IMG/VR virus record: IMGVR_UViG_3300034284_001753
Coordinates: 1 to 38,485 of that record
Source: a virus
Length of the DNA: 38,485 nucleotides
Strand: one strand, 5' to 3'
The notes under the pieces: generated by a model
The model's input: the letters and a program-made list of their open reading frames with translations, nothing else
What the model was told of the DNA's origin: nothing
Databases searched by the model: none
Made by a program: the position numbers and the translations under genes
In this document: piece by piece, positions 461 to 38,448 of the stretch
Layout of the letters: each line of letters opens with the position of its first letter
Numbering within the stretch: position 1 is the stretch's first letter

Positions 461-538
461 TCACAACCAACAAAAGGGGGGATGGTTAATCCCCCCACAT
501 CATCCCAAGAAAAGACGTTCAAAGATTTTGAACAGACT

Positions 539-629
539 TCCCCTTAAGAACCAGCTAACGCTGGGTTTGTTTCATAGGGGATGCTCACCGATAGGCTAAC
601 GCCTCTCTGCCGCTCCCCTAAAGACCCCT
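539..629 (+). ncRNA. Candidate structured RNA with competing stems
   Basis: TCCCCT (539-544), AGGGGA (576-581) and TCCCCT (614-619) can form two mutually exclusive 6-bp stems that share the middle strand. Stem one encloses the perfect hairpin CCAGC-TAAC-GCTGG (551-564). Stem two encloses AGGC-TAAC-GCCT (593-604). A further CCCCT occurs at 625-629. Both apical loops are TAAC closed by C-G, which belongs to the stable UMAC tetraloop class only when read on the plus strand. No ORF or strong ribosome-binding site is present. The element could be a switch, a processed leader or a small RNA. Orientation and existence as RNA are inferred. Confidence 0.45.
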
Positions 630-821
630 AGGCGTATGTGTTTTAAGAATATCTTAAAGGTTATCAAACAATCAGGGTATTGAGCTATTAAGTTTACGCG
701 CACGAGGCTTTGTAACAAACAAAAATCACACTGTCAAGTAAATAAAAACTACACCTTTTTACGTCTGTTTCCTTGTGGTGCTTTTCTGTTTCTCTTTTAA
801 AAAAAAGATGCAATTTTTTCC

Positions 822-850
822 TTGACAAGCTGCAATAATTGCAGTATATC
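822..850 (+). promoter_or_regulatory. Early promoter P1 with internal operator
   Basis: The -35 is TTGACA (822-827), the spacer is 17 bp and the -10 is TATATC (845-850). The spacer contains the perfect palindrome CTGCAAT-A-ATTGCAG (830-844). The same arrangement recurs at 2141-2169 and 38420-38448. It is followed by an AACAAC-rich unstructured leader and the gene at 901. Confidence 0.85.
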
Positions 851-6245: not shown

Positions 6246-6535
6246 GATTCATTTTCCCGTTCATATTTTTTAAGAACAAGGTTTGCTGCATAAATGGCTT
6301 CTACTAATTTTCCATAATCATCCCCAATTCTATATTTGTGGTTTTCGAGGATTAAATTTGCCGTATAAAATAACCTACGTAACTCCCCATAAAGAATTTC
6401 TATAGCCTCCACAGCCTCCAAAACTGCATTTCCTTGCTTAAGGTCAATTATTTTACGAAAAAAATCAGAGCCAATTTCTTTACCCTCAAAAGCACATGCT
6501 ACCATGTACAGCTCATCTGTTATTTTAGCACTCAT
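6242..6535 (-). CDS. Hypothetical helical protein, 97 aa
   Basis: It starts MSAKITDELYMVACAFEGKE and is nearly all helix, with two similar YTANLIL / YAANLVL segments around residues 57-63 and 82-88 that suggest an internal repeat. The start overlaps the upstream gene by 11 bases through the TGAATCATGA junction; an AGAG stands before the motif as a weak ribosome-binding site. No family is recognised. Confidence 0.7.
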   Translation of the reverse strand: MSAKITDELYMVACAFEGKEIGSDFFRKIIDLKQGNAVLEAVEAIEILYGELRRLFYTANLILENHKYRIGDDYGKLVEAIYAANLVLKKYERENES

Positions 6536-34387: not shown

Positions 34388-36649
34388 CTACTCTGTTTCA
34401 ATGCGCGTAACGCGACCATTCTCACGGACAATGCGCTTTGGCTTCTGTATCATAGATAAAGCACTCTGTGTGTTTTGCGTACTTGCAGTCGAAAACTCCT
34501 TAATAGCATCCCCAATCTTTGAAATAGCCTCACTTACAGATGCCATCTGCTTTTCCATATTGCTTTCTTTTTCAGAATCCTCACTTTTTTCTTCCTCTTG
34601 CTCTGGCGGCTCTGCCATCATCAATGCACGATTTGCCTCTTCCTGCGCAACCTGTTTTCCCTGCTCCACCAATAACTTAGCTTTCTCAAGCTTCAGCTTC
34701 TGAAGAGAGATTTGGGTTTTCATGACTTCAACCTGTAACGATCCTGCCTTATAAGCCGCATCCGCCGCCACTCTTCCCTCTTCAATGTCCATCGCCTTAT
34801 CCATAGGCTCAGGCGGCGGTGGCGCAGGCTGAAACTCATCAGGATTTGCAAAATACTTTTCTACATCACCCAAACCAGACAACGTCACCAACTCCGACAT
34901 TGTCCTGTACAAATGCTGAGGCGTTAACAGAGGATTGTTCATCAACCCCTGCGCCGCTATGTTTTGCTGCAACGATAAAACACCCTGCAACGCCAAAACC
35001 TTCGCCTCTTTGTCCGTCCGACCCGTGCCCACCGTAATGTCAAAAGACTTCCGCTTTCTCCACTCCCTAGGATCAACCTCGTAATACTTACCCGAATCAC
35101 GCAAGATCATAGAATCTTTAGCATACTTCCTAAGCAACTCATGCGTCTTTAAATACAAAGACTTAATGCCAGTTTCAGCAAAGATACGCACAATGTTCTT
35201 TAACTTCTTTTGAGACGCATTCAAAATACTCGCGCCCACAAACTGCGTACTCTCCGATAATGCCGCTGGGTCCAACCCTTGCGTCACCTTCGATATACCC
35301 GTGCGACGCTCCGCTAACTCGTCCAACAGCCCCAATATAGGTATGTTCTTGTCCGCCACATACTCCACGTTTAACGGCAATATGCCATCCGTATTTGCCG
35401 CTGGAATCACACCCCCCGGATCAGCATCCGCCAGCATCTTTGTATCCAATCCCGTCGTATCAGGAACAATCGTCACAGGCGCATTGTGCTGCAGCATGTT
35501 GTTCAACGTACCACGCAACAACGTACTCTTATACCGCTGAATATCCCCAATCTCGTCATACTTGGAAATACCCCAAAACCTGTGAGGCACAATGTTCGGT
35601 GACAATGCACAGTAAGGAATCGAATCCGTTTCCTCACATTCCAACACCACAGTCACACCATTCCCAGTTTGTCCATAACCAAATGTTCCACCAACAATGG
35701 CACGATATAACCGCATATCCCCATTGTTCTTAACATCTGCCCGAAAGTATGTCTCCATAATCTCAACGCGATCCGTAAACGTGCTTTTATCGCCTGCACC
35801 AACATTCTGAAACGAATTTAAACGATCAGAATCTCTCGCCCGTTCTTCCTCAGAATTAAACAAAATCGTTGTCTTAGGCACACGCTCAATCTTCTCTAAA
35901 CTATAACCAGCCGCCACTAAATCAGAGCGACGTGCAAACACACGTTCAGCTACAAACATAACATCATCAAGATTCAAACTCGAATGCGTCTTATCCACAT
36001 AAAAGTTTTCAGGTTGTATGCACTCAATACGAACCTGAGACACATCACTCTTTCTGACACAATCCACATCAAACCGCGCCATCATCACCATCTCAGGCGG
36101 CATGATCTGAATTTCATCCATAGATAACTCTTGCTCACCAAGAAACGCCGTGACCGCCTTAACCTCTACGTCTTTATCATTCACCAAGGAGGTGAACGCC
36201 TGAAACGATTGCATCTTGTACGTTTCGCGCTCTTTGTTGACGACATCGTCCCAATAAACTTTGACAATCCCATTCTTTTGAATCAAAGCATCTTTTAGCC
36301 ACGTATAGAACAACAAGAACCCATTGTTCTGCTCTTCAATAATGGTTTTCACCATCTTGGTTTCTTGCTCCGCCGCCTGTATATCGTTCATGTTCTCAGC
36401 CACAAACGATCCAATGGGTGACGTGCTAAAGTATATATCCATACATTCTGCTAACGTCCACTCCACAGCATCAAAGACGTCAGAGGATACAAACTCACTC
36501 CATCCCTCTTTCTCACCGCCAAATAAATCACGGTTGTAATACTTAAGGCCTAACGTCCTCTCTCTAGTCAATTCGGTGTTATACTGCCCAATGTCACCCC
36601 AATAGGACTGCACAATACCAATCACATCATCATCTTTTAACTTAGCCAT
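34388..36649 (-). CDS. Portal protein, P22-like, 753 aa
   Basis: Long portal of the P22 type. The front has YYNRDLFGGEKEGWSEFVSS and DVFDAVEWTLAECMDIYFST, typical of this family, then PIGSFVAENMNDIQAAEQET. A central wing and stem region follow, and a C-terminal segment (about 620-730) is charged coiled coil (AYKAGSLQVEVMKTQISLQK; EQEEEKSEDSEKESNMEKQM). It forms the dodecameric ring through which DNA enters and leaves. It overlaps the large-terminase stop by one base. Confidence 0.9.
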   Translation of the reverse strand: MAKLKDDDVIGIVQSYWGDIGQYNTELTRERTLGLKYYNRDLFGGEKEGWSEFVSSDVFDAVEWTLAECMDIYFSTSPIGSFVAENMNDIQAAEQETKMVKTIIEEQNNGFLLFYTWLKDALIQKNGIVKVYWDDVVNKERETYKMQSFQAFTSLVNDKDVEVKAVTAFLGEQELSMDEIQIMPPEMVMMARFDVDCVRKSDVSQVRIECIQPENFYVDKTHSSLNLDDVMFVAERVFARRSDLVAAGYSLEKIERVPKTTILFNSEEERARDSDRLNSFQNVGAGDKSTFTDRVEIMETYFRADVKNNGDMRLYRAIVGGTFGYGQTGNGVTVVLECEETDSIPYCALSPNIVPHRFWGISKYDEIGDIQRYKSTLLRGTLNNMLQHNAPVTIVPDTTGLDTKMLADADPGGVIPAANTDGILPLNVEYVADKNIPILGLLDELAERRTGISKVTQGLDPAALSESTQFVGASILNASQKKLKNIVRIFAETGIKSLYLKTHELLRKYAKDSMILRDSGKYYEVDPREWRKRKSFDITVGTGRTDKEAKVLALQGVLSLQQNIAAQGLMNNPLLTPQHLYRTMSELVTLSGLGDVEKYFANPDEFQPAPPPPEPMDKAMDIEEGRVAADAAYKAGSLQVEVMKTQISLQKLKLEKAKLLVEQGKQVAQEEANRALMMAEPPEQEEEKSEDSEKESNMEKQMASVSEAISKIGDAIKEFSTASTQNTQSALSMIQKPKRIVRENGRVTRIETE

Positions 36650-37872
36650 TAAACCATCATCCTTCTGCTAGGGGCTGCATATTGCATCCGACGTGATGCC
36701 ACTTTTCCAAAGCCTTCACATGCATATCGAAGCGCATCAATACCATGGTCTTCTTGGTGTTTTGCTATATCAGGCAATACCTTGCCACTATCCTTATCCG
36801 TTGCATAACTATAAAAAGCAAGCTCTTTAGCTATCTCAGGGCATCTTGGATGAACAACAATGTTGTAACCTTTAAGGAAATTGATTCCCTCCTCAACACT
36901 GTTCGCTCCTTTCAAACTAGGCATCATCTTAGGGTATCCGTGATTCCTCATGTGACTTATTGTCTCAGGCCTTGAACAATCCGCAACAATCACATATCGC
37001 TGGCTATCTGGTATGCTAAGAAACATTCTTGGCAAGTCTATTGTATCACAATGACTTAAATACAACTCTTGATCTATATATAAAGTCCGTTCTTTCAGGT
37101 AACAGCGGATCAGGACCGTGGGATCGGTGCTAAACCCCCAATCACAACCAAACTGAAACACAGCATCCGGATCCGTTTCAAAAGATTGTATGGTCCAATC
37201 CTTAAAGACCCTTGTCTCACTTAGCTCAATGTATCCGCCCAACCATACATGGCGGTACTTATCCACGCTTCGTGATCTGTCGTATTCCATTTCATCCCGC
37301 AAAACCTGTGGAAACCATGGGTTGTCCATATAATTAACCTGCACCACAATGGAATCAGGCGGAGGATTCTCACACCTTAACAATGCATCCACGGCATCCG
37401 TTTTAAAGTTTGGATTCCACGTAAACCACAACTCTGATCCTGGTTTTCGGATTGTCGGCCGCAACAACTCTAAACTTCGATGGGATAACGATTGCGCCTC
37501 TTCCACCCATGCGCGATCAAACCCAGCCAAAGACTTGATATTATCAGCCGTCTGGCTTTGCATTCCCTGAAAAACAATCTCGCCTTTGCCATATTTATTT
37601 TTAATTACATTATGCTGGATGATAAAATGGTCTGCAATGCCCATTTCCTCTATCTTAATTTCAAGGTCACGCTTCACTGATTTATCTAAGGACTGCTGAA
37701 TCTCCCTAACGCAAACGCTGCACGTGTCTGGATTCATAAGATGCTCCTCTAGAAGCATCTCCCCAAAGAAGTGTGATTTACCACTTCCCCTGCCACCATG
37801 CGCCCCCTTGTAACGCGCTGGCTTTAGCAACGGCAATGCCCACTTAGGCGTATTAATCTTCAGAGTCGTCAT
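36649..37872 (-). CDS. Terminase large subunit
   Basis: 407 residues with ATPase and nuclease halves. Walker A GGRGSGKS is at 26-33. Walker B with catalytic Glu, FDRAWVEEA, is at 118-126, and the coupling motif TWNPNF at 151-156. The RNase-H-like nuclease shows Asp244 in FGCDWGFSTDPTV, Asp298 in YVIVADCSRPE, and Asp379 in HGIDALRYA. It cuts concatemers and drives DNA into the head. ATG 37872 is used rather than TTG 37878. The start overlaps the small-subunit gene by 20 bases. Confidence 0.95.
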   Translation of the reverse strand: MTTLKINTPKWALPLLKPARYKGAHGGRGSGKSHFFGEMLLEEHLMNPDTCSVCVREIQQSLDKSVKRDLEIKIEEMGIADHFIIQHNVIKNKYGKGEIVFQGMQSQTADNIKSLAGFDRAWVEEAQSLSHRSLELLRPTIRKPGSELWFTWNPNFKTDAVDALLRCENPPPDSIVVQVNYMDNPWFPQVLRDEMEYDRSRSVDKYRHVWLGGYIELSETRVFKDWTIQSFETDPDAVFQFGCDWGFSTDPTVLIRCYLKERTLYIDQELYLSHCDTIDLPRMFLSIPDSQRYVIVADCSRPETISHMRNHGYPKMMPSLKGANSVEEGINFLKGYNIVVHPRCPEIAKELAFYSYATDKDSGKVLPDIAKHQEDHGIDALRYACEGFGKVASRRMQYAAPSRRMMV

Positions 37873-38323
37873 GGACAATGATGCGTTCTATTTTCTGTAG
37901 CAATATAGGATTATCGCCTTGACCACCTATGTTTAACTTGACAGCCTCATTGAACCCATACATCGCGTTTAGCTCTTTTAAGGCCCCTGTCATGCCTTGT
38001 GAGTGTTTTTGGCACCTAGCTATATCGGCTGCCTCTAACAGTGCCTCTACGGCCATCTGGCGAGTCCACACAACGTTTCTTTCAGCTCTTGCCTTTAGCT
38101 CTTCTATCATAGCCGAAACATTGCTACCACGCGCAACTTCATGAGCACGTCTTCGATGTGAGTTTTTATTATCTGTCTTCACATCGTAAGCATCACGATA
38201 AGCATCGACTTGTGGAACCCCTGCAACAACGTTTCTGACAAACTTCTCTTGTTTCGGCGTCAAAGCCTTTGAGCCTTTAGGACGTCCTGCCTTTTTCTTT
38301 GGCTTTTTATCATCTTTATCCAT
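37853..38323 (-). CDS. Terminase small subunit
   Basis: 156 residues. ATG 38323 is chosen because AAGGGAGG stands upstream and the promoter start lies near 38337, making the longer frame to 38356 unlikely. A basic disordered front (KKPKKKAGRPKGSKALTPKQ) precedes a HTH-like domain (EKFVRNVVAGVPQVDAYRDA), the Terminase_2 pattern, then coiled-coil helices (AMIEELKARAERNV). It recognises phage DNA and stimulates the large subunit. First gene of the late operon. Confidence 0.88.
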   Translation of the reverse strand: MDKDDKKPKKKAGRPKGSKALTPKQEKFVRNVVAGVPQVDAYRDAYDVKTDNKNSHRRRAHEVARGSNVSAMIEELKARAERNVVWTRQMAVEALLEAADIARCQKHSQGMTGALKELNAMYGFNEAVKLNIGGQGDNPILLQKIERIIVHDDSED

Positions 38324-38343
38324 AAAATCCTCCCTTTTGTTCA

Positions 38344-38372
38344 TATATGACAACAAAAACCCACAAAATCAA
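38344..38372 (-). promoter_or_regulatory. Late-operon promoter
   Basis: On the minus strand: TTGATT (38372-38367), 17-bp spacer, CATATA (38349-38344). The start near 38337 leaves about 14 bases before the ATG at 38323. It is divergent from the promoter at 38420-38448 and probably starts the leftward late transcript. Confidence 0.65.
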
Positions 38373-38419: not shown

Positions 38420-38448
38420 TTGACATGCTGCAATAATTGCCGTATTGT
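38420..38448 (+). promoter_or_regulatory. Early promoter P3 with internal operator, at edge
   Basis: TTGACA (38420-38425), 17-bp spacer, TATTGT (38443-38448). The spacer holds CTGCAAT-A-ATTGCCG (38428-38442), almost the same as in P1. The leader AACAACAACACAAGCGT also matches P1. It points off the right edge and, on a circular genome, would serve the gene at 2-460. Confidence 0.82.

Follow-up and report, generated by a model that had tools for sequence, protein, structure and literature searches.

A proposed small non-coding RNA gene with twin GUUA-loop hairpins, an accessory module in a group of related phages

What is encoded by a short stretch of phage DNA that carries the same hexamer twice, its reverse complement once between them, and a perfect hairpin in each interval? 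The stretch lies at positions 539-629 of a virus record from IMG/VR; the record, 38,485 bases long, was analyzed over its whole length and is referred to here as the window. An earlier note on this DNA had described these elements and read them as a switch-like RNA with two exclusive stems. The elements themselves were recovered intact: TCCCCT at 539-544, AGGGGA at 576-581, TCCCCT at 614-619 and a further CCCCT at 625-629, together with two perfect hairpins with C(UAAC)G loops, viz. CCAGC(TAAC)GCTGG at 551-564 and AGGC(TAAC)GCCT at 593-604 on the plus strand. A scan of the window for a hexamer, its reverse complement and the same hexamer again, both intervals containing a perfect hairpin, returned exactly one site. 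Sixty whole-window dinucleotide shuffles gave four such triples in total (~0.07 per window), one of which had the same loop in both hairpins (~0.02 per window); the scan criterion was defined after the motif had been seen, and these rates serve as a guide and not as p-values. Within the window, GCTAACGC is confined to two places, namely the two motif hairpins. Thermodynamic stability alone is unremarkable, with z scores of -1.35 for 530-640 on the plus strand and -2.7 for 470-705 on the minus strand.

The late genes of this phage lie on the minus strand, the first in the set being those for the small terminase (37853-38356), the large terminase (36649-37878) and the portal (34388-36649), and small early genes are found on the plus strand. 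By protein similarity, the best relatives are phages from spring water and scattered cultured phages. Relatives were sought using flanking proteins and DNA patterns, which yielded eight further contigs bearing a conserved block of ~250 bp (window ~521-770). With the window included, five distinct sequence variants were obtained from related IMG/VR phages (the window, grouped with L003/L024; L005 with L004; L018 with L017; L027; and L015 with L016), the identity between variants being 90-99%. In all five, the three hexamers are unbroken, as are the two hairpin stems of 4-5 bp. On the related contigs, the early and late gene sets diverge from one region, and the block lies in or near it; each record that carries the block has it once, at one general location. 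The similarity of L015 to the window ends at ~521 and fades past ~785, both flanks being different and unalignable. As a separate observation, the window and L027 have large terminases that share only ~50-60% identity with those of relatives with much closer small terminases and early genes, which points to replacement of this subunit.

The block is missing at the equivalent site in four related lineages (L007/8, L009/10, L011/12 and L013/14), each of which keeps the gene corresponding to 901-1146 and the small terminase, with nothing of the block between them. A covariance model (R1) did not find it elsewhere in the records of these lineages, which may be fragments, and a search of related records with the same model returned no diverged copy, the best extra match having an E-value of 0.4. 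L005 carries the block and L013 does not; their small terminases are 97% identical and their large terminases 96%. Judged by this presence and absence despite near-identical terminases, the block is an optional accessory module of the related phage group. The same comparison bears on the proposal that the block acts at the level of DNA, whether as a site for packaging, as an origin of replication or as the remnant of a transposon, with its palindromes serving as protein-binding sites. Such an element would accord with the nearness of the small terminase gene, the palindromic GCTAACGC repeats and the sharp block edges in L015, but presence of the block is not tied to the terminase, the entire 183-nt stretch is kept and not the palindromes alone, and a transposon is not suggested by the single copy per record and the lack of copies in other phages, plasmids and GTDB genomes; this reading is considered very improbable. 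A cos or pac packaging site in particular was rejected or at least ranked lower, given that small terminases of 97% identity occur both with and without the block.

Conservation of the block is by itself weak evidence for function, because the third positions of neighboring gene 901-1146 are similarly conserved: the block is 93% identical to that of L015, with third positions at 85% (only moderately lower), and 96% identical to that of L018, with third positions at 95% (equal). Stops occur in all six frames, on both strands, of every variant, and for this reason a peptide-coding block was ruled out; one-base insertions are present in L015 and L018, one in each. Variation also avoids the predicted stems. 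Using a five-helix fold, two of 76 paired columns vary compared with 20 of 112 unpaired columns (Fisher p = 0.0008), and counting both alternative folds, the values are two of 82 and 20 of 106 (p = 0.0003); the test is blind to strand, and it compares five related sequences that are not independent, with a fold drawn from the same sequences. No compensatory double change occurs among the five close variants. The general features of phage small RNAs, viz. that they are non-coding, structured and conserved, were all found here in five variants, and a folded non-coding RNA is the most likely product of the block.

The strand from which this RNA would be read was considered separately. The earlier note had favored the plus strand on account of the twin UMAC loops, and had suggested a processed leader as one possible role. 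Neither suggestion holds up well. The pattern is strand-symmetric, and the loop argument is weak; in L005, one of the loops is UACC, so that UMAC no longer holds on the plus strand (read on the minus strand, the change is GUUA to GGUA). A leader is unlikely, since the plus-strand promoter of the gene at 901 begins at 822, downstream of the block, which is consequently not the leader of that gene. Evidence from a putative promoter, a terminator-like hairpin and wobble changes instead favors the minus strand (Table 1).

Table 1. Coordinates, in the window, of the proposed RNA gene and neighboring features.
Feature	Position	Strand	Basis or remark
Proposed RNA gene body, ~183 nt	521..703	-	conserved block, stops, variation avoids stems; leftward
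Putative RNA start	~703-701	-	from promoter spacing
-35 hexamer TTGACA	732..737	-	same in all five variants
-10-like hexamer TACAAA, preceded by TGT (extended -10)	709..714	-	17 bp from -35
AT-rich conserved stretch upstream of -35; possible UP element or regulator site	738..770	-	alignment
Terminator-like hairpin GGGGGGAU..AUCCCCCC + UUUUG	470..497	-	would give ~230-nt transcript
First AGGGGA, 5' arm of stem A on minus strand	614..619	-	invariant
Shared UCCCCU, can pair with either AGGGGA	576..581	-	invariant
Second AGGGGA, 3' arm of stem B on minus strand	539..544	-	invariant
Hairpin AGGC(GUUA)GCCU on minus strand; C(UAAC)G on plus strand	593..604	-	
Hairpin CCAGC(GUUA)GCUGG on minus strand; loop GGUA in L005	551..564	-	
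3' arm UACGC, closing stem of 5' domain	632..636	-	pairs with 695-699; invariant
5' arm GCGUA, closing stem of 5' domain	695..699	-	pairs with 632-636
Divergent early promoter TTGACA-17-TATATC, palindromic spacer	822..850	+	drives plus-strand genes from 901; outside RNA

Leftward on the minus strand, all variants keep TTGACA (737-732), a 17-bp spacer and TGT-TA[C/G][A/G]AA (714-709). The -35 hexamer is identical in all five, and the spacing and the TGTTA are likewise kept in each, though letters of the spacer change in L015/L020; the -10 hexamer is weak, being TACAAA in the window and decayed to TACGAA in L005 and TAGAAA in L027. At the other end, a G-rich hairpin followed by UUUU (497-470) is found in four of the five variants, L015 being the one that lacks it. 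Copies of this terminator-like hairpin also stand behind other plus-strand genes of L018, so it is not specific to the proposed RNA, and the hairpin at 470-497 may instead mark the ends of plus-strand genes. The three informative wobble changes all preserve pairs on the minus strand only. Thus, alignment columns 97/120 read on the minus strand as GU in four variants and GC in one, whereas a plus-strand reading gives an A/C mismatch in the four; a C-G to U-G change keeps its pair in a hairpin of L018; and a G-C to G-U change does so in the terminator-like hairpin of L027. No change preserving a pair on the plus strand only was seen within the block and terminator-like helices. The GCCUC pairs proposed by RNAalifold, with changes at 706 and 704, were dropped as minus-strand wobble support in that they lie upstream of the putative start. 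The RNA is probably read from the minus strand, a direction that is well indicated, though not proven, by these sequence features.

A plus-strand origin could take another form, that of a 3' untranslated region with a terminator cluster, the hairpins of which would end or protect an early transcript before the next plus-strand promoter at 822. In all five variants, the block is indeed preceded closely by the end of a plus-strand early gene, which in L015 abuts it directly, and the hairpin CCAGC(UAAC)GCUGG at 551-564 followed by GUUUGUUU scores as terminator-like on the plus strand in every variant scanned. The upstream gene is, however, not the same among variants, the hairpin has 5 bp and a poor U-tract, and the wobble changes fit the minus strand only; with the 5' domain and the conserved minus-strand -35 and spacing also left unexplained, this origin, the chief competitor of the minus-strand reading, is regarded as unlikely.

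The lambda pR' leader, or 6S RNA, is a ~200-nt transcript directed toward the late genes that ends at a terminator. The proposed RNA resembles it in length, in direction and in its putative terminator end, but the block is optional among phages that share late genes, and plus-strand genes lie between in four of the five variants. The put sequence of phage HK022 is transcribed at the head of early operons as an RNA of ~70 nt with two stem-loops that enables RNA polymerase to pass terminators (PMC9378689). It shares with the block two neighboring stem-loops close behind a phage promoter; in contrast, the proposed RNA is ~183 nt long, is followed by an apparent terminator-like hairpin and does not head a conserved operon. 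That the block is a late-operon leader of either kind, reading into the small terminase gene to control termination or antitermination, is consistent with a promoter that always faces the terminase gene (150 bp off in L015, ~0.9-1 kb in L005, L018 and L027) and with an RNA that begins near this promoter and forms two hairpins, as does put. It is nonetheless held to be highly unlikely: the four block-less lineages retain the terminase/early divergence, so that the block is not present in all close relatives; terminator-like hairpins, in addition to the plus-strand genes, intervene in four variants; and phages without the block also have the AT-rich motif that immediately precedes the small terminase gene. 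Presence of the block does not track the terminases, and this speaks against a packaging site as well as a late leader.

Returning to the minus-strand small RNA, the earlier note had further proposed that its exclusive stems constitute a regulatory switch. The two folds stand as possible by predicted energy: the best folds of a 186-nt minus-strand RNA from the window, with either exclusive stem, have predicted energies of -47.1 and -48.2 kcal/mol. A functional switch is neither supported nor refuted by the covariation check, given that the three hexamers are invariant in all five variants. In its strict sense, a switch would be an addition to any RNA reading, with UCCCCU alternating between the two AGGGGA strands upon a signal. 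The near-equal energies and the invariant hexamers would suit this, but the predicted preference flips among variants (stem A in L018 and L015, stem B in L005 and L027), covariation is lacking, and in the long transcript a U-rich sequence further downstream pairs with the second AGGGGA; a strict switch is viewed as doubtful.

Comparison with known families placed the RNA in none of them. Against Rfam 15, no match above the curated gathering score was obtained with the whole window, and the region 400-900, examined at E-values up to 10, gave none but sub-threshold matches; this, along with the variation that spares the stems, bears out the earlier note's description of a structured RNA without a known family. 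No homologues of the block were found among INPHARED phages, PLSDB plasmids or, by pattern, GTDB genomes; the GTDB pattern matches (L034-L037) and further viral matches (L025, L038-L041 and L048) look like chance. Phages are known to encode small RNAs with their own promoters, including OOP, aQ, PreS, IsrK and c4, that range from ~50 to several hundred nt (PMC12197685). The proposed RNA is like these in being short, non-coding and opposite or beside early genes; it differs in its twin GUUA hairpins and three-hexamer arrangement, for which there is no Rfam match, and in that no target or chaperone is known for it. RNA anti-CRISPRs (Racr) are accessory small phage RNAs that mimic CRISPR repeats as solitary units (PMC10651486), and the block is likewise accessory and non-coding, but no repeat-like unit was recognized in it, as judged without a repeat library. 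The best reading of these likenesses is that the RNA would be a new, unclassified member of the phage-encoded structured small RNAs.

Taken as a whole, window ~470-740 is proposed, with moderate confidence, to be a minus-strand gene for a small non-coding RNA that forms an accessory module in the related phage group. A sigma-70-type promoter (737-709) that points away from the early promoter at 822 would start a transcript near 703 that runs leftward through a 5' domain closed by GCGUA/UACGC. Beyond this domain, there would follow a G/C-block stem, which bears one of the GUUA-loop hairpins, and the other such hairpin, with the 3' end either at ~521 or at the terminator-like G-rich hairpin (497-470). 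The AGGGGA/UCCCCU/AGGGGA set would permit two folds of similar energy, and the RNA would act in trans, as a regulator or a decoy, with its twin GUUA hairpins as the likely sites of contact with a protein or RNA partner of host or phage. A crude scan with seven shuffles found no duplex targets in the phage's own sequence above those of shuffled RNA. The more specific notion that the GUUA hairpins act by titrating or mimicking a host RNA partner, e.g., in defense or RNA control, with UCCCCU setting the two folds, is distinctly unlikely. Optional non-coding RNA genes of phages are seldom noticed because annotation looks for proteins, and this block is not in the curated RNA and phage collections searched. 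Its presence and absence in phages with near-identical terminases offers a natural comparison for the role of the RNA.

Some minor observations were also made. Early promoters of the form TTGACA-17-TAT with a TGCAA..TTGC spacer occur three times in the window (822, 2141 and 38420), where 0.01 would be expected. The three (822-847, 2141-2166 and 38420-38445, all on the plus strand) share TTGACA..CTGCAA..ATTGC..TAT with the palindromic spacer, as do promoters of related phages, and the shared spacer suggests a common operator of the early genes. Hairpins of G6/C6 flanked by CAACAAAA recur behind early plus-strand genes (L018 4585-4605, 4945-4963 and 5569-5593; window 476-496) and resemble terminators chiefly in the minus-strand direction. 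L039, an unrelated viral contig rich in GC, has repeated TCCCCTATGGGCGTTAGCCCATCACTT units with GGGCGTTAGCCC hairpins at 6463-6513. Lastly, intergenic direct repeats TTAGTAGT..ACGGGTAC around a GGGTACCC palindrome are present in L013/L014 and at 5927-5965 of L018, and are common to these phages.
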